Origin: Terriglobia bacterium
Lineage (GTDB): Bacteria > Acidobacteriota > Terriglobia > Bryobacterales > Bryobacteraceae
Assembly: GCA_020073345.1 (NCBI GenBank)
Contig: JAIQFI010000023.1
Location: forward strand, 1-64,000
DNA length: 64,000 bases
Direction: 5' to 3'
Below the pieces are notes generated by a model. That model saw nothing but the letters and a program-made list of their open reading frames with translations. It had not been told where the DNA came from and searched no databases. Each line of letters begins with the position of its first letter. Positions within the stretch are counted from its first letter, which is position 1. A program made the translations under genes and the position numbers. This document shows, one piece after another, positions 4,660 through 25,784 of this stretch.

Positions 4660-6093
4660 ATGATTCTTGAGGCGACACGTCGGACGATCCTGGTGGGAGA
4701 AGACGACGCGGGGGTTCGAGATTATCTAAAGATGATGTTAGACTGCCGCGGGTATCACGTCCACTCTGCCGCCGACGGCGAGGAAGTAATGGAAGCATTG
4801 CACAAAGGGTTCCCTGTCGCTGCGATTCTGCTGGATATCATGATGCCCAACAAGGACGGCTTTGAGACGCTTCAAGAGATTCGGCAGATGAACGCCAGCG
4901 TGCCCGTAATCATGCTTTCAGGCATGTCCTCTCCGTGCAACGTTGTGCAGGCGATTAGGGCTGGAGCAACCGATTTCCTGGCTAAACCGGTAGACCACGA
5001 GGATCTTGTGAGGGCCATTCAGCGGGCGGTGGGCTCGACTCGGTCAGAGTCCGCCGATGCCTCGCCCGGCGACGGCATGTTCTGCGGGGACAACGCCACC
5101 ATGCGGGAATTGAAGGCGTGCCTGCCGAAGATCGCCAGAAGCGACGTCCCTGTTCTTATCCAGGGTGAGACGGGCACCGGGAAAGAGGTCCTTGCTCGCC
5201 AGCTGCACGCTCTGTCAACCCGCGCCAATGGCCCGTTTGTAAAGGTGAATTGTGCGTCGGTCCCGTCAGATCTGATGGAGAGTGAACTATTTGGCTATGA
5301 GCGTGGAGCATTTACCGGAGCTTTCCAGAAGAAGTTGGGAATTTTTGAGCTTGCGAACGGAGGCACGATTCTCCTTGACGAGATCGGGGACATGGACATC
5401 CGGCTGCAGGCGAAACTATTGCAAGTCTTGCAAGATCACGAGTTCCGCCGGCTCGGCGGAAAAGATAACATACGGATTCAAGTGCGCGTGATCGCGGCGA
5501 CTCATCGGGACCTTCAGGAGGCGATCAGTGACAATACGTTTCGTGAGGATCTTTACTACCGGCTCAACGTATTCACACTGAAGATCCCCTCTCTTCGTGA
5601 AAGGAGAGAGGATGTTGCAGGCCTCGCGGAGTTCTTGATTCGCCGGTACAACCCCCCTGATTCAGTTCCTGTGCCGCTCACCGCGAGACTGCGGGATGCC
5701 CTGATGACTTTCGACTGGCCTGGAAACGTCCGGCAGCTAGAGAATGTTGTGCGAAAGTTGATGGTATTACGCGACCCCGAGGTCATTGCAACTGAGCTTG
5801 AGATGCTCGCTTCAGGGCAGAATAAATATCAATTTGCGCCACGGTCAGACGAGGAACCGGCCCCCAATATGCCTCCGCAAAAGGCGTCCTCTGCCTCCAC
5901 CTCCGTCTTAGAGGAAGTCTCACGCGCAAAAGAACAGGCTGAGGCAGATGCCATTCTGGCAGCCCTCCATCAGACCCGATGGAACCGCAAGCAGGCGGCA
6001 GCCAGATTGAAGATTGAATATAAAGCCCTCCTTTACAAGATGAAGAAACTATCGATCGAGGAGCGGGCGGGCAGGCTCCCTCGCCCTGCCTGA
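4660..6093 (+). CDS. NtrC-family sigma-54-dependent response regulator
   Basis: Three domains are clear in 477 residues. The receiver (1-120) has acidic E14/D15/D16, phospho-acceptor D59 and K109. The AAA+ sigma-54 activation domain has Walker A GETGTGKE (169-176), the GAFTGA loop that contacts sigma-54 (216-221) and Walker B ILLDEIGD (237-244). A Fis-type helix-turn-helix ends the protein (NRKQAAARLKIEYKALLYKM). It should activate sigma-54 promoters when phosphorylated by the kinase just upstream. The architecture matches the PrsR/NtrC regulators found beside exopolysaccharide and exosortase genes, so the likely targets are the polysaccharide and export genes here. I found no convincing -24/-12 promoter by eye. 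Confidence 0.93.
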   Translation: MILEATRRTILVGEDDAGVRDYLKMMLDCRGYHVHSAADGEEVMEALHKGFPVAAILLDIMMPNKDGFETLQEIRQMNASVPVIMLSGMSSPCNVVQAIRAGATDFLAKPVDHEDLVRAIQRAVGSTRSESADASPGDGMFCGDNATMRELKACLPKIARSDVPVLIQGETGTGKEVLARQLHALSTRANGPFVKVNCASVPSDLMESELFGYERGAFTGAFQKKLGIFELANGGTILLDEIGDMDIRLQAKLLQVLQDHEFRRLGGKDNIRIQVRVIAATHRDLQEAISDNTFREDLYYRLNVFTLKIPSLRERREDVAGLAEFLIRRYNPPDSVPVPLTARLRDALMTFDWPGNVRQLENVVRKLMVLRDPEVIATELEMLASGQNKYQFAPRSDEEPAPNMPPQKASSASTSVLEEVSRAKEQAEADAILAALHQTRWNRKQAAARLKIEYKALLYKMKKLSIEERAGRLPRPA

Positions 6094-6234
6094 AAGGATT
6101 CGCTCAGCAGCACTGCACAGGTCATTCGGTCAGGTACTAGGCTTATCGCCGCCGGACGTCCATTGACAAGTGCTCGCTAGATCGGTCATCCTGTAGTTTC
6201 AAGATCTTATCGGAGAGTCTCAACTCGGAGTGAA

Positions 6235-15886: not shown

Positions 15887-16437
15887 AAATTGGGGCCCCG
15901 CTTCGTTTTGAAAACGAGTACGACAGCCATGCGCAGGTAAGTCTTACTCAAGGTAGTAAGTCTTACTGCTACGCCATCCTAAGCGCCACAACTGGTTTCC
16001 ACTGTTACTGCAACGTTAAGGCTAGAACTCCACGCTATGACGTTGTGGAACGCTTGCATTCTTATCGCCACGACGCGGGAGCGGCTCCTTGGCATCTCAA
16101 GGAGTAAGTGCGTTACGGTGGTGTAATATCTCACGTTTAAAGGGGATGGTCTAGACGCCACGCGGTTGTTTCCACAGATCTAACGAACCTAGAGTCAAAT
16201 GCTTAGCATCCTATACCTGTGAATAGCTTGTGGAAAAAACATTCCGCCACGATCCGGTTTTTTGAGAATGGTACAACGGCACTGTCAGTACTAAAGTGAG
16301 ATCCGTTTTGGTCCCATTCTTGCTACTTAGTACACTCCTGTCTAGCGTCCCATCGTCCGATCAGAACACTAGGGCAGAGTGCATTGAGTGGGCAAGTTCA
16401 GGTGGTGCTTTCGAGACGATTGGGGAGGGTTATCCTG
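15887..16437. other. Divergent intergenic region between PilZ and dockerin genes
   Basis: About 550 bp with no supported gene. It holds two GTAAG-type inverted repeats near the PilZ start. A GTG-started frame at 16296 with a hydrophobic start overlaps the dockerin gene in another frame and is not credible. The GGGAGGG ribosome site of the dockerin gene lies at its right end. Confidence 0.5.
15937..15966. promoter_or_regulatory. Pair of GTAAG-T-CTTAC inverted repeats
   Basis: The 11-bp inverted repeat GTAAGTCTTAC occurs at 15937-15947 and again at 15956-15966 (the latter extends to AGTAAGTCTTACT). The two are 19 bp apart start to start, close to two helical turns. Together they lie 51-80 bp upstream of the PilZ start, a usual place for an operator. 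The left site shares CGCAGGTAAGT with the palindrome at 21402-21418, which suggests the same DNA-binding protein. Confidence 0.5.
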
Positions 16438-17622
16438 GTGGAACTGATTTCCTATCTTTCGGCAAGAGGACTTCGAGCGGTGATTGGCCTGGCCGTGGTC
16501 GTCGGCGGCATGTCTCTCCTGTGTACTCCGGCGTCGGCGCAGATTAGCTTGGTGCATGTGACCAACTGTGGTTCAGGCCCATTCCCGGGAACGGTCTGTA
16601 CGATTCCTGCGACAAGCAGCGGAAATCTAATTGTCGTCGGTATACAAAAGGGAATGGCAGGCGGTGCGGCAATTACGGTAGCCAGCGTAACCGATAATGC
16701 GGGGAATGTCTATGCAGAAGCGGGTGCAGCACGAGCAACTGTTTCAATCGGTTATGTCGGTGATATTTGGTACGCCAAGAACAGCGTGGCTGGTGCCACG
16801 TCCGTGACCGTCGCGTTTAGTCAGAGTGTTTCACAGGCCGGCGCCGTAATATGGGAGTTTTCAGGAGCCGACCAGACAGCGCCGCTCGGTCAGACGGCGG
16901 TGCTCAATGACCAGCCAGCGAGCACCAATGTTTCTGGCGCCGTCGTGACGACCACTTCAACCGGTGAGTTGGTGGTATCTATTGCCGCAGTCAGCGACAG
17001 CGTGACCGGTAGTACGAATGCGTTTATCAACGACTCTGCTCTTATGACAAACGGATGGGCACATCTCATAGCGTCCGCCCCGGGTCTGTACGGTGCTCAG
17101 TGGAACCAAGCCGTCGCCGGCACATATTGTACCAGCACCGTGAGCTTCAGGGCCGCGTCAGCAAGCGTTGGGAATGCCTGTGACTTGAACAGTGATGGAG
17201 CCGTGAATATTCTTGATGTGAATCGGATCGTAAGCATGGTTCTCGGTCAGACGGCTTGTTCTGCGAATATCAACGGAGCTGGGGTCTGCACCGTCGTCAC
17301 GGTACAGCGAGTCGTGAATGCAGCCCTGCCAGCCGGAACGTGCGTCGTCGACGGTCAACCGCCTCCCCCGCCACCGCAGCCCCACAGTGTGACGCTGAGC
17401 TGGCTAGCCAGCATTACATCAAATGTGACTTACAACATTTACCGCGGGACGACGTCCGGCGGCCCCTACGCGAAGGTTAACGGGTCACCCCTCGGGCTGT
17501 CCTATGTAGACAACTCCGTTCAATCCGGCCAGACCTACTACTATGTAGCGACAGCGGTGGATGCGAATGGCATTGAGAGCGTGTTTTCAAATCAAGCCAC
17601 GGCGGTTATACCAAGTCCCTAG
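16438..17622 (+). CDS. Secreted protein with dockerin type I and fibronectin III domains
   Basis: The start is a GTG at 16438 with an excellent GGGAGGG ribosome site 8 bases upstream; this gives a clean signal peptide ending TPASAQ. Residues ~40-220 form a beta-rich domain related to the jelly-roll-like part of the 12992 protein. A dockerin type I domain follows, with one perfect calcium loop (DLNSDGAVNILD) and a second degenerate loop (NINGAGVCTVVTV). A poly-proline linker leads to a C-terminal FnIII domain (NIYRGTTSGGPYAKVN, TYYYVATAVDANG). Dockerins bind cohesins, and cohesin-like domains occur in two nearby proteins. Confidence 0.82.
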   Translation: MELISYLSARGLRAVIGLAVVVGGMSLLCTPASAQISLVHVTNCGSGPFPGTVCTIPATSSGNLIVVGIQKGMAGGAAITVASVTDNAGNVYAEAGAARATVSIGYVGDIWYAKNSVAGATSVTVAFSQSVSQAGAVIWEFSGADQTAPLGQTAVLNDQPASTNVSGAVVTTTSTGELVVSIAAVSDSVTGSTNAFINDSALMTNGWAHLIASAPGLYGAQWNQAVAGTYCTSTVSFRAASASVGNACDLNSDGAVNILDVNRIVSMVLGQTACSANINGAGVCTVVTVQRVVNAALPAGTCVVDGQPPPPPPQPHSVTLSWLASITSNVTYNIYRGTTSGGPYAKVNGSPLGLSYVDNSVQSGQTYYYVATAVDANGIESVFSNQATAVIPSP

Positions 17623-17780: not shown

Positions 17781-19412
17781 TTACCAGAGGTACCACTTGC
17801 CGCCGAACAAAACGCATGCGGCAATAAGCGCGTTGGTGACACCATGCGCGACCACGGCGTCACCGATTCGACCACGCCACAGTAGCGCGCCGGCGTAGAG
17901 CATTCCCGCCGCTGCGCCGGCAAGCCAGCGGTCGCCGTGAAGAAGGCCGAAGGCAACCGAGGATACTAATATCGACAAAACCGTGACGGTTCGCATGCTT
18001 ACCGACTCGAAATCCGCGGAGATCAGGCGGCGGAGCAGAAAGCCCCGAAACGCCAGTTCCTCGGCGATCGGAACGGTGACCACCGCGGCAAGGGTTCTAA
18101 AAGCAAGCCAAGCGAACCGGCCGGATGCGGGCAGGACTGCAAGATCGGACGCTAATCCGCTGTCCTTGTGTGCTCCCGAAACTAGATCCAGACCCAGCCA
18201 GATCACAAATACCAGGCTGCCAACTATCGGCGCGACCCAACCGAAATTCCAATCGAGCTTTGCGTATTTCGGCCAGAGGAACCACAGAGTCCCCGCCGCG
18301 GCGAAGAACCTTAGCGGATAAAGCCATTCAAAGGTGCCCGACGCGGCGCGAGCAAGCATAGCCGCGGCAAGGATTGCCAAGAACGGTGTCAAATACGCGG
18401 CGGTCGGGTTCTCCGCGGAACTCTCTTCAGGTCTGCGCGCCCGCGGTCTCACGGTGAACCATTGCACCCGTTGCGCGGTCAACGAGAATCCTAGAGCAAC
18501 AGCGTTGAAAGCGATCCAACCCGCCTGCGAATGAAATCCGCCAACGGCGACGCTCGCCGCGCCCGCGTTCCCGATGAGAATCAGTACGGCAATTCGCAAG
18601 ACGTTCAGCAGCCACAAGACGCAAACGCCTGCAGGAATCAGCAGGAAGGCCTGCGGAAAACGGCATTCGCGCCGGAAAAACCAAAGCCACGCGACGCTGA
18701 ACACAAGGATCAGGCCCACGCCCTCAACGCCGGAACAGGACGCCGAGATCGTGGTCATGAACTCGCGGCTTCCTATCTCATTTGTCGTTGGGTCAGCGAC
18801 TAGGTCTGGGAGGAGGGGCCGAAGCAAGGCCCTTACCATAACGAACGTCAGGCCGGTCGCGGGTTGCCACAAGGGCGCGAAGCGACTTATCAGCTGGAGC
18901 GCTACGAATGTCGCGCCCGCGGCGTATACCCACGCCGTCCCGGTGCTGCGCAACAGATCGAGCCAGACCCGGGGAGGAACGAAGGCCGCCGCCCCCAGGC
19001 CAATAGCAAGTAAGCCTGCCAGGAGGGGGCTCTTCGAAAGAAGATTTCCGTGAAGGCCCCATTTTTCCTCCGCCAGCAGAAAGGAACTCAGGGCAGCGAA
19101 TGCAGCCATCGCACCAAAGTGGCCGACAAGCAGGCCCCACTTGATGGAGGTCCCGACAAGTTCATTGGAAATCCGTTGGAGCGCCAGCTTAGACCGGAGG
19201 TAACTAAACGTCAAAAAAAGTGCCGCGAAGGCCACGACCGCTTGAAACGCGGGCCTTCCGCTTCCCCCGAAGGCCCGTGTATCGATCCATGTCGAAACAG
19301 CGATCAGCTCTAGTGCGAAAAGGACTGCCAGAACTCCGAGCCGCTGCGGCAGTCCAAACTCGCGCCAGTCCCGAAACGCACGCCCGGTGAAATGCCCCCT
19401 GGGCAGGGTCAT
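17781..19412 (-). CDS. xrtE: Exosortase E / CAAX-type protease fusion (VPEID-CTERM system)
   Basis: A polytopic membrane protein of 543 residues. The exosortase half carries the catalytic triad: C226 in SASCSGVEG, R273 in LNVLRIAVL and H294 in GGFHSQAGW. The C-terminal half is a CPBP/CAAX-like protease with EE451-452 and R456 in AEELAFRGFLLRR, H492 in AFGLLHGDR and H523 in VAHGVTNA. This fused layout is diagnostic of exosortase E, which cleaves and sorts VPEID-CTERM proteins at the outer face of the inner membrane. The substrate gene lies just upstream (19488-19697). I start at the ATG at 19412 because GAGGGA precedes it; a GTG at 19463 or an ATG at 19442 would add up to 17 residues. Confidence 0.93.
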   Translation of the reverse strand: MTLPRGHFTGRAFRDWREFGLPQRLGVLAVLFALELIAVSTWIDTRAFGGSGRPAFQAVVAFAALFLTFSYLRSKLALQRISNELVGTSIKWGLLVGHFGAMAAFAALSSFLLAEEKWGLHGNLLSKSPLLAGLLAIGLGAAAFVPPRVWLDLLRSTGTAWVYAAGATFVALQLISRFAPLWQPATGLTFVMVRALLRPLLPDLVADPTTNEIGSREFMTTISASCSGVEGVGLILVFSVAWLWFFRRECRFPQAFLLIPAGVCVLWLLNVLRIAVLILIGNAGAASVAVGGFHSQAGWIAFNAVALGFSLTAQRVQWFTVRPRARRPEESSAENPTAAYLTPFLAILAAAMLARAASGTFEWLYPLRFFAAAGTLWFLWPKYAKLDWNFGWVAPIVGSLVFVIWLGLDLVSGAHKDSGLASDLAVLPASGRFAWLAFRTLAAVVTVPIAEELAFRGFLLRRLISADFESVSMRTVTVLSILVSSVAFGLLHGDRWLAGAAAGMLYAGALLWRGRIGDAVVAHGVTNALIAACVLFGGKWYLW

Positions 19413-19487
19413 CGTTCCCTCGTGGGTGTAAGGGTCAATCATGGTCAAGAGGACGACAGACACCCAGCGTTTGGGTCTGTGTCCCTG

Positions 19488-19697
19488 TTACTTGGCGTTC
19501 GAGCCGGAGTCCTTGGTTCTTCGGCGTCCCCGAATAGCGAGGAGCGCACCGGAAAGCAAAGTCAACGCAATCACTCCCGATCCAGGATCGATTTCTGGAG
19601 AAGTGTGGCGAATCCTATTAGTCGTAGTCGGGCCCGCGGCCAAGGCGACTCCCGATAACCCGAGGATTAACAACATCGTCGCAAAGATTTTGCTCAT
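19488..19697 (-). CDS. VPEID-CTERM sorting substrate (69 aa)
   Basis: This tiny protein has an N-terminal signal peptide (residues 1-21, ends VALAAG), then only about 11 residues, then the sorting signal SPEIDPGSG (33-41), a hydrophobic helix (42-55) and a basic tail RGRRR (56-60). This is the VPEID-CTERM tripartite signal recognised by exosortase E, with Ser in place of Val. After signal cleavage and sorting almost nothing would remain, so it may act as a short surface peptide, anchor or processed signal. The xrtE gene follows on the same strand, so they are probably co-transcribed. An 18-bp palindrome lies 46-63 bp upstream. Confidence 0.9.
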   Translation of the reverse strand: MSKIFATMLLILGLSGVALAAGPTTTNRIRHTSPEIDPGSGVIALTLLSGALLAIRGRRRTKDSGSNAK

Positions 19698-20057
19698 CGC
19701 AGGACTATATCAGAAAGGGGCGAGGAAATCCACCCCAACTAGTACCAGTACGTACTGGTAATCAATGTCCCCTAATCCCACATGTGGAGTGACGTGCAAA
19801 AATCGGGATCTCTCAAGCCCGTCATAGGCTTCCAGCGGCTGACAGTTGCCGAGCACACCGGGCATCTCAATGCCACTATGCGGCGATCGATTCGCTTATA
19901 GATGCTATGACTCGGTCCTTGAAATCACCGGAGTGCATCATCCAATCTTACACGCCGGCAATCGCACGTCCAGGAGCCTTGCTGCCCAGGAAGGCATCTC
20001 GGTTCATTACGCCAGAACCGGCGGGACCGTCTGAAGCTAGAACATTCCTGGAATTTC
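19698..20057. other. Upstream region of the VPEID-CTERM/xrtE genes
   Basis: About 360 bp without a credible gene. It carries the 18-bp palindrome at 19743-19760 and, on the minus strand, a TATAGT box ending about 8 bases before the substrate ATG (too close for an ordinary leader). Short frames here lack similarity to anything I recognise. Confidence 0.45.
19743..19760. promoter_or_regulatory. 18-bp perfect palindrome (candidate operator)
   Basis: TACCAGTAC-GTACTGGTA is a perfect 18-bp inverted repeat, 46 bp upstream of the VPEID-CTERM start codon. Length and position suit a dimeric transcription factor that controls the sorting system. The nearby CGGTACTGGTACCG at 22843-22856 shares the TACTGGTA half. 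Confidence 0.55.
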
Positions 20058-21299
20058 CTAGCCCGGTCCCACCGACAGCCATAGGCCTACGGGTGTGACA
20101 GCATTCCCGATCTCTATTACAACGGGCGTCGCCCACGCTGGGCTTGCGTTCGATGGAATGCGGACAATGACTGCCATCACCCCGCTAATCAGCTCCGGGG
20201 CGGGACCGGCATAGAGAATTTCCGCCAAGTGGCCTCCGATGGACGCGCCGGAGGCTAGCAGAAGTCGTCCCACTTCGGTTGAGCCCAGAACTCGGCCGGT
20301 GATTCCTGCCGGATCCGTCTGTCCGGCTCCTGTTAGGTAAAGTATGACCCAAGAACCCAGTGATGCCGGATTCACGGGTGTATTGATAGAGCCGTCCTGA
20401 TTACTAGCGGCAACCTGTCCGGTGCCGCTCCCATCTAGAGTGAACAGTGCAGGCACAGATGGAACAGCCGGAAGAGTAAGCGACGAGACTTGATTTCCCC
20501 CTCGCTCGACTGTTAACACCGTTGCTTGCTTCCCCAGAATCTCGTACGGAGCCACTGCGTTGATTTGGTTCGCGCTCGCATAGAGCAGCGGAGCCGGAAC
20601 ACCATCGAACTTCACGCTGGTATCGGAGGCGGTGACAGGCCAGCTACCGCCGGATGCCTGCATGATAACGGGCACCTCCGGACCGATTCCCGCGCCGAGG
20701 AGAGTGACTACCTCACCAGGAACTACGGCTCCGGGGAGCAAGCTGCCCGCGCTGAGCACACCGCCTGACTGAAGGGGTGCGATGTCGCCCGCTTGCCCCG
20801 AAACGGTAATCGTTGCCGAGCTGCCCGAGATGTCGATCGTGTCGCCGGCCGGACTGGTGGCCACGAGATTCCCTACCGAGACCGTATACGCGCCTGCGGG
20901 AGCGGTTCGACCGACGTTGACAACCAGAGTCAGGAGCGGGCCATCGGCAATTGGAGTCCGATTGAGGCCGACAATCACCAGGCGATGTTGATTGGGCGAG
21001 ATGTCCGCGGAATAGAGTGCCTTTGCAGCCAATCGCATCGCGCTTCCTGGAAGCACGCTGACGCTCATGGCCGAGCTGTCATACGTCAAGTCGAGTTGAA
21101 TTCCACTGACTTGGTGGTTCTCAGTCGTGCAGGAAACCGTCACGATCCCGCTGCTGGCGGGCGAGAGCGCGGCCGAGTTCAGCGAGACCTGTATCCCGAA
21201 TGCCAAAGCTGGCGCCAGACACATCGCCACCCCAATGGAACGGATTCTGCCGCCGTTCATCAGCCGATATTGTGACATGTCAAAGCTTGTTCGGATCAC
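20058..21299 (-). CDS. Secreted cohesin-like / TIGR03437 protein
   Basis: A signal peptide (ends ALAFG) is followed by a cohesin-like domain (~35-165; SLNSAALSPASSGIVTVSC, GIQLDLTYDSSAMSV, LVIVGLNRTPIADGPLLTLVV). A TIGR03437 domain fills the rest (~190-410; VTLLGAGIGPE, APLLYASANQINAVAPYEI, VILYLTGAGQTDP). It is the third TIGR03437 protein of the window and the second with a cohesin-like domain. The start is uncertain: GTG at 21299, or ATG at 21278 or 21260; none has a strong ribosome site, and 21260 gives the most ordinary signal peptide. Confidence 0.8.
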   Translation of the reverse strand: MIRTSFDMSQYRLMNGGRIRSIGVAMCLAPALAFGIQVSLNSAALSPASSGIVTVSCTTENHQVSGIQLDLTYDSSAMSVSVLPGSAMRLAAKALYSADISPNQHRLVIVGLNRTPIADGPLLTLVVNVGRTAPAGAYTVSVGNLVATSPAGDTIDISGSSATITVSGQAGDIAPLQSGGVLSAGSLLPGAVVPGEVVTLLGAGIGPEVPVIMQASGGSWPVTASDTSVKFDGVPAPLLYASANQINAVAPYEILGKQATVLTVERGGNQVSSLTLPAVPSVPALFTLDGSGTGQVAASNQDGSINTPVNPASLGSWVILYLTGAGQTDPAGITGRVLGSTEVGRLLLASGASIGGHLAEILYAGPAPELISGVMAVIVRIPSNASPAWATPVVIEIGNAVTPVGLWLSVGPG

Positions 21300-21729: not shown

Positions 21730-22539
21730 TTACTTCTTGAGATGGTATCCGTAACCGTAGTATTGCTTGTTGAGGCCTTCGGCTCCATTGAGAACGAGGC
21801 CCGCGACGTTCTTGCGGCCGAGGATCGCAAGCGCCTGGTCAACAGCATCCTTGGGCGTGCGGTCTGCCCGTACGACCATTAAGCTAGCGTCCACAAGCCG
21901 TGACAACAATACGGTATCTGTAAGAGGTATCACAGGCGGTGTGTCAATGACAATCCACTCGAAGTGCTGGGATAATCTCCCCATTATGTTCGACATTGAA
22001 TCTGATTGCAACAGTTCTGTGGGATTACCCTTTGGCCGACCGGACTGCAGCAAGTAGCAACCCAGCGATTCCAAGCGTCGAAGTAACGACATCGGATCCA
22101 CATCTTCTTCGAGACTCTCTGCCAGTCCGGCCCGACGTTCGAGTCCCAGGCTTTGAGCCAGACTCGGCTGGTGCAGGTCCGCCTCCATCAGTAAAACTGA
22201 GCGCTTCCCCTCCTCAGCCAGAGCCACAGCCAGGTTCAGGGCGACAGTAGATTTCCCGTCTTGAGGTAAAGGGCTGGTTACAAGAATGCTCTTCAGCTTT
22301 CCCAGCGCCTGGAGTTCTCGAAGGCGCATCCGAAGAAACCTGAATCGGTCAGCGCCAGGACTCTGTGGATCGGTAAAGAAGATAAGTCGGCTCGCGGGGC
22401 TGATTCGTACCTGTTCAATTGGAACGTGCCCAAGCTCTGAGGCTACATCGGCCTCTTCCGCTACCGTACTGCGTTGAGTTGAGGACGAGTGAGTTCTCGT
22501 GCGCTGAGGCTTCCAAAGAAGCTGGGAAAAGTTGATCAT
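21730..22539 (-). CDS. BY-kinase (CpsD/CapB-type tyrosine autokinase)
   Basis: A 269-residue cytoplasmic kinase with Walker A SPLPQDGKST (89-98), Walker A' VLLMEADLHQP (116-125) and Walker B WIVIDTPPV (195-203). The C-terminal tail holds a tyrosine cluster (KQYYGYGY), the usual autophosphorylation site. BY-kinases cycle between phosphorylated and free states with the co-polymerase to control chain length and export. The Wzc-like gene lies upstream on the same strand, separated by an unusual 414-bp gap. Confidence 0.93.
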   Translation of the reverse strand: MINFSQLLWKPQRTRTHSSSTQRSTVAEEADVASELGHVPIEQVRISPASRLIFFTDPQSPGADRFRFLRMRLRELQALGKLKSILVTSPLPQDGKSTVALNLAVALAEEGKRSVLLMEADLHQPSLAQSLGLERRAGLAESLEEDVDPMSLLRRLESLGCYLLQSGRPKGNPTELLQSDSMSNIMGRLSQHFEWIVIDTPPVIPLTDTVLLSRLVDASLMVVRADRTPKDAVDQALAILGRKNVAGLVLNGAEGLNKQYYGYGYHLKK

Positions 22540-22953
22540 TAAGTGCTGCCGCTACTATCGTATCGCGCTCACCTGGCGTTACTTAGAACGTACCCACCAG
22601 AGAGGCAGACCCGAAGTTTGGTAGCCACGAATGTTGGCTTCGACCAATCTTATCGTCATAATCCTTTTGTTACACCTCTCCATACCGTTCGGCAGCCCGT
22701 CGGGCCGTTGCAGCTTTTTCAGCAGGCGATAGAGCAATGTTGATGCCCAAGCGATTATCGCCGATCACTAGCTGCCTCCCCCGTGGAAGCCACCTTCCTA
22801 ATAAACAATAACAGGAGAGTGTTGGACTAAGCTATCAGAAGTCGGTACTGGTACCGCCGTACACAAGATATAGGACCCCAAGATCGCACTACGCCACTGG
22901 TCCTATCGGGGACGAACTAGCCGCGGACGAGATCTTCTTGGAGCGAGGCCGAG
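22540..22953. other. Gap between co-polymerase and BY-kinase genes
   Basis: These 414 bp contain no supported gene. An inverted repeat CGGTAC-TG-GTACCG sits at 22843-22856. Co-polymerase and kinase genes are normally adjacent, so a separate promoter for the kinase or loss of a small gene is possible. Confidence 0.45.
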
Positions 22954-24465
22954 CTATGCGAGCAGCCTGTAGGCATAAAACTCAGTGGCGGCTATCACGG
23001 TTACAACAACGCATCCCGCGACCAACTCAAAAGCGGTTCTCCAGGTTCGAGCGCGCCGCTCCGTTGGGGTCGGCAATGCGGGGATACTAAACACCAGAGG
23101 CGGAGCGAATTTGCGCCGAAGTTCGTTCTCGCTGTGGAAAGTAGGCTTCCGAAGGTCCAGGAGAAACGCAAGGACGAAGCCCAACAGGGGGCCAGCCGCA
23201 ACTGCGCCCAAGCTTCCCGTCTGCAGCCGCTTACTCGCGGGGTGCGCGGGCAGGTTGGGGGGGTCCACCAAGCGGAATTGCTGTTGTTGCTGGCGCTTCC
23301 CCAAATCCGCAGCCAGGTCCGACTGCTGTTGTTTTCTCTGCAGTTCGGCAATTTCAACGTTAACTGCTTCCATCTCGCGCGTCGTCGTACTCAACTGCTG
23401 CTCATACACCGGGTTGGCGTTGAGGTGACTCTCGTACTCCTTGATTATGGCCGTTTGCCGCGCTGACTCTTTTAATAAATTGTCAATTTCCCGCGCGTTT
23501 GCCTCAAGCTGCCCTTCCAGCAGGGTGATGCTCGGATCCGCGGAAGCCATAGGAGTTTGACGGCCCTGGAGCGTCCTACCCCCAATCTTGATCTCCTCAA
23601 TGTCGGCCGTCAGCTGGGCAATCTCCTGGTCTTTGCTCACCACTTCCGGATACTGGGGCGTGAAACGCTTGAGCAAGACCGCTCGCTCGTTCTGGAGACG
23701 AGTGAGTCGCGCATTCAGATTTCCAGCCAACGCAGACTCCAAAGTTGCGCGTTGTTCAATGGCGCGTTCGTGGCTGGCGGTCACAGTGTCGAGCCGATAC
23801 TGGGCTTGACGCCACCGCTCCAGGTTCTCCTGTCGCGCATCCGGAAGCGCCCCGGCGTACTGCCCCTTGAGAACTCGCATACGCTGCTCGAGTTCGCTGC
23901 GTTTTCTTAGCCTCTCCGTCAACTGTTCCTCGAGAAGACCTGTAGTAGCCTCGACCTGGTTGGCTTCAAGCTGCAAGTGCCTCTGCATGAACGACTCGAC
24001 CAGCTTCTTGGCTACGTCTTGAGCTAACTGCGGTGTCTTGGCCGAGAATGCGATCCGAAACGTGAAGTTGGGGGCCGGTTCGATATCTATGTTTTTTCGC
24101 AGCAATTCAACCGCGGCATCTGGCGATGTATTGCTATCAGCGAGTCCGAATTCGTCAACGATTTGTAGCAACCGGGACTCGGATAAGACTTCGCGGGCGG
24201 CGATTTGCACCCTGTCGATCAGTGGCGTGTTCGAAAGGGGGGCCACCAAGTTGGGAGCGAGTTGCTGGTCCGCAACAAGAATCGTCGCTTCCGAACGATA
24301 TTTGTTGGGAACGAAACGAAGAACCACGTTACCGGCCACAACGGTGAGCAGTGTGGAGAACGCGATAAGCCATCGGCCATTCTTGCAAATCCTCAGGTAC
24401 TGTCGAATCGTTTCGGTAAAGTCGACGTTTGTTTCGTTCAGTTGGGTTTGAGTTTTTGGGTCCAT
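22954..24465 (-). CDS. Polysaccharide co-polymerase (Wzz/Wzc-GumC type)
   Basis: A 503-residue inner-membrane protein. The first helix (about 32-52) precedes a Wzz domain, then a long periplasmic coiled coil rich in Gln, Glu and Arg (about 165-400). A Pro-rich motif (VDPPNLPAHPASKR) leads into the second helix (about 415-437), and a third helix occupies the C-terminus (475-500). There is no fused kinase; the BY-kinase is encoded separately downstream. It should bridge inner membrane and Wza-like exporter and set polymer length. Confidence 0.9.
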   Translation of the reverse strand: MDPKTQTQLNETNVDFTETIRQYLRICKNGRWLIAFSTLLTVVAGNVVLRFVPNKYRSEATILVADQQLAPNLVAPLSNTPLIDRVQIAAREVLSESRLLQIVDEFGLADSNTSPDAAVELLRKNIDIEPAPNFTFRIAFSAKTPQLAQDVAKKLVESFMQRHLQLEANQVEATTGLLEEQLTERLRKRSELEQRMRVLKGQYAGALPDARQENLERWRQAQYRLDTVTASHERAIEQRATLESALAGNLNARLTRLQNERAVLLKRFTPQYPEVVSKDQEIAQLTADIEEIKIGGRTLQGRQTPMASADPSITLLEGQLEANAREIDNLLKESARQTAIIKEYESHLNANPVYEQQLSTTTREMEAVNVEIAELQRKQQQSDLAADLGKRQQQQQFRLVDPPNLPAHPASKRLQTGSLGAVAAGPLLGFVLAFLLDLRKPTFHSENELRRKFAPPLVFSIPALPTPTERRARTWRTAFELVAGCVVVTVIAATEFYAYRLLA

Positions 24466-24501: not shown

Positions 24502-25629
24502 TCACTCTGCAATCGGGACCTGGCGCTCGTCCATGACCCCATGGACACGGCTCAGAATCTTGTGAACCACCCCTTCACTCAGGCGGTACACCACGACACC
24601 GAGAGTTGTACCGGCGGTGTTCGTGACGATATCAGTCATGCCTGAACTTCGAGTCGGGAGGAACCCCTGGAGTATCTCCATCGTGAGGCTCATTGTGGTG
24701 CCTAGAATCACAGTGGTCCAAACCGTCCTCGTTTTCTGCTGTGGAAAGGACAACGATAGGTAGCCGTACCAAAGGAAGCCGAACGGAACGAATCCGGCGA
24801 CATTGATCAATATGCTCTTGTAGTAACTCCAAGCCGGTTCATATTCATCCCAGGGCCTCTCCAGGAACAGCTTCCCCGCCACGAGGTAGCGCTCGGGAAT
24901 CATCAAGTCGACGCCGGAGCGGACCTGATTGTGAATGATGTTTCCAGCGCCTTCTTTGAAAAGATAGAGAGCGGCTGGATGTGCATCTTCGGTGAGAGTT
25001 GGGGGGGGCCGCTGACTCCAGCTCGCAAAGTGCTGAGATACCTCAGACGGGCTTAACTCGCGAGCATAGACCGCAAATCCGCCAATCCATCCAGACCAAC
25101 TATCGCTGATTAGGGGTGAATCGCCCAAGATGAATTGTCCAGCGAGCGCACGTTTCGAAAACCGGAGGACTTCTGTCGATTTCCTTAGGGCACCATCGAC
25201 AAAAACCGAGGTTCGACGGCCGCTTGCCGCGATCGTCAGGAAGACTGGAGTCGCTGGCCGGAAGACAGCATCGACGTACAGCGATTTGTGCGTAGGAGTG
25301 TACTCTTCCTCCTTGTTTTCACTCACTACCACTCCATCGGCGTACTGACGCAGTGATAGTAGATCTGTGCTGGCTGGACTAAAAACACTGAAGAAGTGCC
25401 TCTCGGCCCTCGTCCGGCTCGGCTGCATCCAAATCTCAATACTCCAGCCTGGGTCTTCATCCGATTCTGGCATCCGGAAGGAGCCAGAACTCATCACCGT
25501 CCCGTAGCGCCCCATCTGGACTCCATTGCGATCGGCCGACCAACTCACTTCGTTCTTCGGACTGTGAAACGGCCAAAGACATGCCACGGCAATCGCGCCC
25601 AGAATCGTGATTGCAAGCGCACGGAACAT
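24502..25629 (-). CDS. LamG-VanZ fusion membrane protein
   Basis: An N-terminal membrane helix (MFRALAITILGAIAVACLW) is followed by a LamG/concanavalin-like lectin domain (about 40-215; WSIEIWMQPSRT, VFVDGALRKSTEVL, GWIGGFAVYARELSPSEVSQHF). The C-terminal part is a VanZ-like domain with three or four helices (INVAGFVPFGFLWYG, MEILQGFLPTRSSGMTDIVTN). VanZ-like genes are common in exopolysaccharide loci, where a role at the membrane is suspected but unknown. The ATG at 25629 is preferred; a GTG at 25656 is in frame. It is co-directional with the co-polymerase gene 36 bp downstream. Confidence 0.85.
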   Translation of the reverse strand: MFRALAITILGAIAVACLWPFHSPKNEVSWSADRNGVQMGRYGTVMSSGSFRMPESDEDPGWSIEIWMQPSRTRAERHFFSVFSPASTDLLSLRQYADGVVVSENKEEEYTPTHKSLYVDAVFRPATPVFLTIAASGRRTSVFVDGALRKSTEVLRFSKRALAGQFILGDSPLISDSWSGWIGGFAVYARELSPSEVSQHFASWSQRPPPTLTEDAHPAALYLFKEGAGNIIHNQVRSGVDLMIPERYLVAGKLFLERPWDEYEPAWSYYKSILINVAGFVPFGFLWYGYLSLSFPQQKTRTVWTTVILGTTMSLTMEILQGFLPTRSSGMTDIVTNTAGTTLGVVVYRLSEGVVHKILSRVHGVMDERQVPIAE

Positions 25630-25784
25630 TGATACCGCGGTGATCGTTATCTGCACGCTGAATTCCCAGGGTTCATATGGCCAGGGCTTATGTATTCTTC
25701 ATTGTAGCTGCGGGCCAGACGACCAGAAATGTGAGGATAGGCTTAGTGAGGCTAATCTAGATGGGATGAGACGGCTGGCTCACC

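Follow-up and report, generated by a model that had tools for sequence, protein, structure and literature searches.

What does a protein-sorting enzyme work on when the substrate encoded beside it holds almost nothing to be sorted? This question is raised by a stretch of 64,000 nt from a Terriglobia bacterium (positions 1 to 64,000 of contig JAIQFI010000023.1, our contig C63; the whole stretch is called the window below). It belongs to the 6.23-Mb assembly, in 98 contigs, of a soil bacterium (G000). On its reverse strand, an open reading frame (ORF) of only 69 amino acids (aa) with the parts of a VPEID-CTERM substrate is followed, 24 bp downstream and on the same strand, by a gene for exosortase E (xrtE). 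An initial annotation had read the pair as a unit of the XrtE/VPEID type whose substrate is nearly empty, and this description holds: the enzyme scores 217.4 bits with TIGR04162 (cut-off, 150 bits), and the anatomy of the small protein is as described. The enzyme family is known and curated, and the tail of the substrate is VPEID-CTERM-like yet under the cut-off of its profile. We propose, with a probability of roughly 0.55, that this is a dedicated XrtE sorting system in which a cargo-free substrate yields a short peptide that is placed on an acceptor, the likelier acceptor being a lipid.

The mini-substrate and exosortase E of the window

The small protein (hereafter a mini, as are its counterparts in other genomes) is built, in order, of the predicted signal peptide MSKIFATMLLILGLSGVALA, 13 residues, PEIDPGSG, a helix, RGRRR, and a 9-residue tail (Table 1). 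All the elements of the VPEID-type architecture are found in it, namely a signal peptide (by rule), PEID, a helix, a basic end, and a place next to xrtE. With the VPEID-CTERM profile TIGR04161 (cut-off, 33), it scores 21 bits as a protein (E=2.5e-4) and 22 bits as a genome match. The residue before PEID is S, not V; across 57 minis, this residue is A in 37%, V in 32%, and T in 18%. Here and below, cleavage sites and spacers were set by the simple A-x-A rule, without a signal-peptide program, and the rule misplaces some sites. By this rule, the spacer comprises 13 residues and not about 11 as first proposed, and both the spacer and the tail are longer than in most of 17 aligned minis of the family. 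An AlphaFold2 (AF2) model of modest confidence (predicted local distance difference test [pLDDT], 72.6; predicted template modelling score [pTM], 0.38) has two helices, at residues 2-17 and 38-61.

Table 1. Coordinates of the features discussed, in the window unless another contig of the source genome is named
Feature	Position	Strand	Basis or remark
xrtE, exosortase E fused to CPBP (Rce1-like) protease, 560 aa, GTG start	17781..19463	-	TIGR04162
Exosortase core, C243, R290, H311	18477..18752	-	TIGR04178; profile and alignment
CPBP glutamic protease domain, EExxxR, H509, HxxxN	17826..18110	-	PF02517; profile and alignment
Mini-substrate ORF, 69 aa (stop included)	19488..19697	-	Sequence; TIGR04161 score; independent profile
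Predicted signal peptide MSKIFATMLLILGLSGVALA, residues 1-20, ending A-L-A	19638..19697	-	Sequence, A-x-A rule
Spacer AGPTTTNRIRHTS, residues 21-33, sole would-be mature part before the motif	19599..19637	-	Sequence
PEID-type sorting signal (PEIDPGSG, helix, RGRRR), residues 34-60	19518..19598	-	TIGR04161, 22 bits; profile A5
Imperfect hairpin over mini stop and xrtE start, possible attenuator	19447..19489	-	z -2.1; 7/200 shuffles fold equally well
Perfect 18-bp palindrome TACCAGTACGTACTGGTA, possible operator	19743..19760	.	45 bp upstream of mini ATG
BY-kinase-like and Wzz-like genes of large polysaccharide cluster	21733..24465	-	TIGR03018, TIGR03007 (XrtA-system type), below cut-off
Orphan tandem minis, contig C35 (L014)	4950-5108, 5127-5288	+	
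Fatty-acid-hydroxylase-family gene, contig C35 (L014)	5298-6149	-	PF04116
Decayed mini tail (apparent), contig C19 (L013)	5967-6005	-	Directly upstream of second xrtE

The frame is taken to be real because a profile made from 67 tails of other organisms only picks it in the window by itself, with E=2.7e-13 among 1298 window ORFs; the next window ORF has E=1.9, and the best of the 1413 ORFs in the reversed window has E=1.2. Our working profile, A5, gives E=8.1e-14, a value to which the window sequence itself contributes as one of its members. The codons also vary as those of a protein should: between the tail of the window mini and those of two other minis in the source genome, there are 6/4/15 and 7/4/16 differences at codon positions 1/2/3, and over 232 similar pairs from 90 tails, the sums are 1487/741/3090. 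The score below the TIGR04161 cut-off might be read as the mark of a chance ORF or of the truncated relic of a longer substrate. This explanation is ruled out, with a residual probability that we consider negligible, by the third-position codon pattern, by the independent profile, and by the tens of loci that repeat this size and architecture.

The source genome itself offers a comparison with what appears to be a true relic. A second xrtE lies on contig C19, and the frame upstream of it ends in GALLVMRGRHKK-stop, with 31 of the last 39 nt identical to a mini on contig C35; the next best place for this match in the 10-kb locus reaches 22/39 nt. The frame looks like a decayed mini. The window mini is unlike it, because this fossil retains the last 12 residues only. 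The minis on contig C35, which has no XrtE match, are a tandem pair of orphans of 52 and 53 aa.

The enzyme appears complete. In all nine aligned XrtE proteins, including that of the window, C243, R290, H311, E468, E469, R473, H509, H540, and N544 are invariant; we take the Arg and His of the first three to be catalytic residues of the exosortase. The motifs EExxxR and HxxxN are those given for CPBP proteases in the consulted part of PMC11980579. The active-site residues that the initial annotation had listed as C226/R273/H294 are the same C243/R290/H311, counted from an ATG 17 codons downstream, and its statement that the active sites are intact is borne out by their invariance (9/9). The AF2 model of XrtE, built from nine sequences, is weak (pLDDT, 68.9; pTM, 0.55); a Foldseek search of the PDB with this weak model gave no match at E<=0.001, and the sequence gave none in the PDB up to E=1.

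Minis and XrtE in other genomes

Is the near-empty substrate, called unusual in the initial annotation, peculiar to this locus? We examined 80 named xrtE loci, the best 80 of 230 found with search patterns from both enzyme domains (39 from Acidobacteriota, 12 from Planctomycetota, and 29 others, which are mostly Gammaproteobacteria, along with some Myxococcota and deltaproteobacterial bins; the grouping follows the record titles). Loci L088 and L089 were left out of the analysis, and 13 rows were struck by eye as non-substrate ORFs before the per-locus counts were made. By rule, a PEID-type ORF is present in 67/80 loci: 34/39 in Acidobacteriota, 10/12 in Planctomycetota, and 23/29 in the others. 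The same rule gave 94 matches in the forward sequences of these loci and 8 in the reversed ones. The ORF lies within 700 bp of xrtE in 34/34, 7/10, and 20/23 of these loci, respectively, and the closest such ORF precedes xrtE, with the same orientation, in 25/34, 10/10, and 16/23. When the shortest substrate of each locus is taken, the median lengths are 54 aa for Acidobacteriota (50-98 aa in the 32 loci measured), 61 aa for Planctomycetota (53-69 aa in 10 loci), and 89 aa for the other groups (55-266 aa in 22 loci). No substrate ORF of at least 150 aa was found in the measured Acidobacteriota or Planctomycetota loci; four of the other loci have one. The cultured species Silvibacterium bohemicum and Aquisphaera insulae have minis of 72 and 68 aa, respectively. 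Shortness is thus usual in the two phyla rather than a peculiarity of the window. Had the window frame been a truncated relic, longer substrates would be expected at related loci; instead, relatives keep the frame beside xrtE, and of the 34 loci in Acidobacteriota where a substrate ORF was found, none has one of 150 aa or more. In 40 measured Acidobacteriota minis, PE is preceded by a median of 25.5 residues (at most 27 in 24/40), which amounts to the signal peptide and little more.

Enzyme and mini also occur together within the family. XrtE was found in 9 of 61 family genomes (eight over the TIGR04162 cut-off, together with G023, where it is in two frames) and minis in 12 (G000, G004, G005, G012, G023, G024, G034, G035, G041, G049, G053, and G058); all nine XrtE genomes have a mini (Fisher p=1.3e-8; this value, like our Poisson values, takes related genomes as independent). 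The minis were counted by their sequence and not by one E-value, so that G004 is in (E=0.0069; A5 E=1.9e-10) and G036 is left out (E=0.0056 in a 329-aa frame; best A5 match, 0.047). They are 49-58 aa long, except for the 69 aa of the window and the 94 aa of G035, which has a proline-rich spacer; in G034 and G053, two tandem minis precede xrtE. In a phylum sample of 347 genomes, where the best candidates, at most 23 per genome, were scored, XrtE and the tail turned up in 3 genomes each, 2 genomes having both. A survey of Alphaproteobacteria, little informative on its small basis, found VPEID-CTERM in 2/289 genomes, where the frames are 166 and 116 aa long.

Are there longer substrates elsewhere in these genomes? 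Profile A5, made from 53 tails, was run on 18 family genomes (the 12 with minis and 6 without, the latter not random, as some were picked for weak matches) and on 20 named genomes of several phyla; in both searches, the best 150 candidates were scored in some genomes. Because several query rows come from the searched genomes, the matches are not independent, and it is the absence of long ones that counts. In the family, there were 19 matches with E<1e-5, every one a mini (or, in G049, part of one) from the 12 mini genomes; their stop-to-stop frames span 31-192 aa, and the 6 mini-less genomes had none. The next match (G032; E=7.6e-4, 573-aa frame) is not a C-terminal tail: PE is missing from it, and another 93 residues of the frame follow. 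The 20 named genomes gave 27 matches with E<=0.01 (1-4 per genome), whose stop-to-stop frames measure 54-188 aa. In the 12 family genomes that carry minis, the profile, which strongly different tails would escape, revealed no long substrate. Since all the A5 matches within these thresholds lie in small frames, at 1-4 per genome, the substrates of XrtE are few and small where tested.

Which part of the mini has been kept? The sorting signal is conserved and the spacer is not. In 57 minis of up to 75 aa, the invariance of P and E follows from the way the search was built. Information content is 1.5-3.9 bits at the later positions of the signal (1.5-4.3 bits over the sorting signal as a whole) vs 0.65-1.02 bits at -8 to -2 before PE, a segment that in the shortest minis takes in the end of the signal peptide. 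Among tandem copies, the spacers differ in the source genome, G034, G053, L120, and L144, and agree in L129. A20, the Ala after which signal peptidase would cut, is kept by at least 90% of 54 aligned minis, which suits a cleaved secretory protein. Because little in the peptide is conserved and sortability is what stays, the identity of the peptide seems unimportant, and the simplest reading is that it serves as a handle attached to something.

The proposed acceptor and the competing explanations

To what might such a handle be attached? When 705 gene calls of at least 120 aa from 93 loci were clustered, the largest cluster was XrtE itself (79 loci) and the next was a fatty-acid-hydroxylase family (11/93). 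The four proteins scanned all match PF04116 (103-116 bits; cut-off, 31). Fatty acid hydroxylases have the His motifs HxxxH, HxxHH, and HxxHH, and H109, H113, H122, H125, H126, H203, H206, and H207 are invariant in 10 aligned proteins of the family. The gene is seen in 8/80 loci, adjacent in 7, vs 0.15 expected from 36 PF04116 matches in 27 genomes totalling 168 Mb. It follows the xrtE stop co-directionally in Gammaproteobacteria (by 20 bp in L183, 21 bp in L192, and 9 bp in L195) and follows the minis by 6 bp in the acidobacterial L173. In L127, L132, G023, and G049, the gene and the last mini converge (24, 66, 1, and 34 bp between the stops); in L136, it overlaps the last mini convergently, and in L149, it is distant, about 5 kb off. 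The only PF04116 match found in the source genome is convergent with the orphan mini pair on contig C35, with 9 bp from stop to stop. In the family sample, homologues of at least 44% identity occur only in G000, G049, G023, and G024 (cut by the contig end), all of which are mini genomes. Because this gene stands beside xrtE or the minis at some loci, a lipid acceptor is suggested.

From the gene anatomy, the conservation of signal and catalytic residues, the co-occurrence, the lack of detectable long substrates in the genomes tested, and the hydroxylase association, all of which were observed, we infer the cutting of the mini by XrtE, the cut position, and the joining partner. The mini would be exported and cut by signal peptidase after A-x-A, while the PEID-type helix would keep a stub of a few to about 15 residues in the inner membrane. 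The exosortase domain (Cys/Arg/His) would then cleave at or near PEID and hand the short N-terminal peptide to an acceptor, more probably a membrane lipid than an exopolysaccharide. The product would be either a lipopeptide or a glycopeptide. The glutamic protease part of XrtE might deal with the freed helix or make a second cut, and the hydroxylase-family enzyme, where present, might modify the acceptor lipid. More broadly, XrtE in Acidobacteriota and Planctomycetota may be a maker of short modified peptides and not a protein anchor, using a signal-only donor and, in some lineages, a lipid tailored by the hydroxylase-family enzyme; this generalization is tentative, and we rather doubt it.

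Several observations weigh against the proposal of a dedicated system with a lipid acceptor. The second XrtE of the source genome is adjoined by a mini fossil only. Conversely, 3 of the 12 mini genomes (G024, G049, and G058) are without XrtE, and no decayed xrtE was seen in the stretches examined around their minis. In the phylum sample, G672 has XrtE and no mini among its scored candidates (at most 23). By rule, 13/80 loci have no substrate ORF, and 7 of the 13 extend for over 5 kb to either side. Two of these seven are L121, where a profile match lies about 4 kb downstream, and L191, whose genome contains a match at another place. Substrates of 201-367 aa occur in Rhodocyclaceae (L179) and Methylococcaceae (L182 and L185). 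The N-terminal helix may also do more than export: it is possibly recognized beyond export because Gly is enriched at -15 (20/68 minis vs 5/72 control signal peptides, p=7e-4) and at -8 (18/68 vs 6/72, p=6e-3), two positions chosen after viewing 18, with p values uncorrected and related sequences counted separately. Finally, the window has no hydroxylase-family gene, and its mini/xrtE unit sits inside a polysaccharide cluster, so that support for a lipid comes from other loci.

The Gly enrichment, together with the two helices of the modest AF2 model and the lack of cargo, is what would be expected if the mini were not a substrate at all but a two-helix accessory subunit or pseudo-substrate controlling XrtE, with the tails of the true substrates too divergent to be detected. 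We consider this main rival unlikely: minis occur in tandem, away from xrtE, and in the three genomes without XrtE; they retain the A-x-A site; and their tails match the PEID-CTERM type that ends the long proteins of some other groups. An acceptor of another kind, in an otherwise identical system, would be an exopolysaccharide whose chain is capped or anchored by the peptide. The Wza, Wzz, BY-kinase, and ABC export genes of the window cluster agree with this, as do polysaccharide-export-like genes (by eye) near xrtE in several Methylobacter-type loci and the general link of exosortases to polysaccharide loci (described in the consulted parts of PMC1569441 and PMC12188702). However, no polysaccharide-type neighbour is widely common, every cluster other than XrtE and the hydroxylase family being confined to at most 8 of the 93 loci, and we regard this acceptor, too, as improbable.

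The initial annotation had also offered a peptide signal or a decoy that reports sorting activity, and the product would indeed be of peptide size. Poor conservation of the would-be mature peptide (0.65-1.02 bits at -8 to -2) speaks against a signal, as does its variation between most of the tandem copies examined; no receptor or export gene recurs among the neighbours, and the decoy is without positive evidence. A role as secreted signal or reporter therefore seems very unlikely to us, and of the functions first suggested, we still rank an anchor or modified stub highest.

Related systems and further features

The unit resembles the TIGR04162/TIGR04161 system in its enzyme over the cut-off and in an adjoining substrate with signal peptide, PEID, helix, and basic end. 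It differs in a tail that is below the cut-off with S for V, in a substrate that is cargo-free, and in the hydroxylase-family gene that joins at some loci. With PEP-CTERM/EpsH (XrtA), it shares the tripartite tail, an exosortase, and a polysaccharide context; in contrast, that system has many substrates per genome (a median of eight PEP-CTERM proteins, according to the consulted part of PMC1569441) and XrtE one to four small ones. The arrangement of one dedicated enzyme with a single adjoining substrate gene is known from the rhombosortase/GlyGly-CTERM and MrtJ/JDVT-CTERM pairs, whose enzymes are unrelated or only partly related (in MrtJ, by the CPBP part only); the portions consulted of PMC3237569 and PMC11980579 contain no statement that the substrates of these pairs lack cargo. 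In Methanosarcina, artA adjoins pssA, and homologues were later shown to be involved in ArtA-dependent maturation, the product being thought to be lipid-anchored (PMC7157517, in part). ArtA with PssA/PssD is alike in having a sorting gene beside lipid-enzyme genes and unlike in being archaeal, with a real S-layer protein as cargo and other lipid enzymes. It provides a precedent for a lipid acceptor, which we tentatively favour.

Our literature search found no paper on cargo-free XrtE substrates, although the 2012 survey by Haft and colleagues, which was outside the search, may already state their shortness. It likewise found none on a link between exosortases and the hydroxylase family or on exosortase/PEP-CTERM in Acidobacteria. 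A substrate of 50-70 aa with one conserved part and a product of about 5-15 residues would be a very simple case in which to ask what bacterial exosortases join their substrates to, and for this reason, the product should be readable by mass spectrometry; the hydroxylase-family neighbour supplies a specific, testable guess for the acceptor.

Some features of the loci may be added. The hairpin over the mini stop and the xrtE start could control the ratio of substrate to enzyme. The palindrome upstream of the mini is single in the window even at 3 mismatches, and its 14-bp core is in no other locus examined save two that overlap the same place. A promoter scan found none. Among the XrtE-less genomes, the near-complete G024 and G058 have intact minis (L085, 6509-6664 (-), and L086, 2021-2167 (-)) as well as three and two other exosortase-family matches, respectively. 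G049, an 84%-complete assembly in which xrtE was not found, has at least four tandem mini copies or parts with N runs between them and a hydroxylase-family gene alongside (L084, 1-1111). The xrtE of G023 (L082, 4307-5885 (+)) consists of two overlapping frames, one for the exosortase part and one for the protease part.

Around the unit, the polysaccharide cluster of the window also contains Wza-like and ABC export genes (by profile scan) and glycosyltransferase-like genes (by eye). Of the flanking genes, that at 16384-17619 (+) has a weak dockerin-like match below the cut-off, and that at 20061-21299 (-) has a cohesin domain over the cut-off and Soli_cterm. Beside the Wzz-like gene, the gene at 24505-25656 (-) combines VanZ-like and laminin G-like lectin domains.

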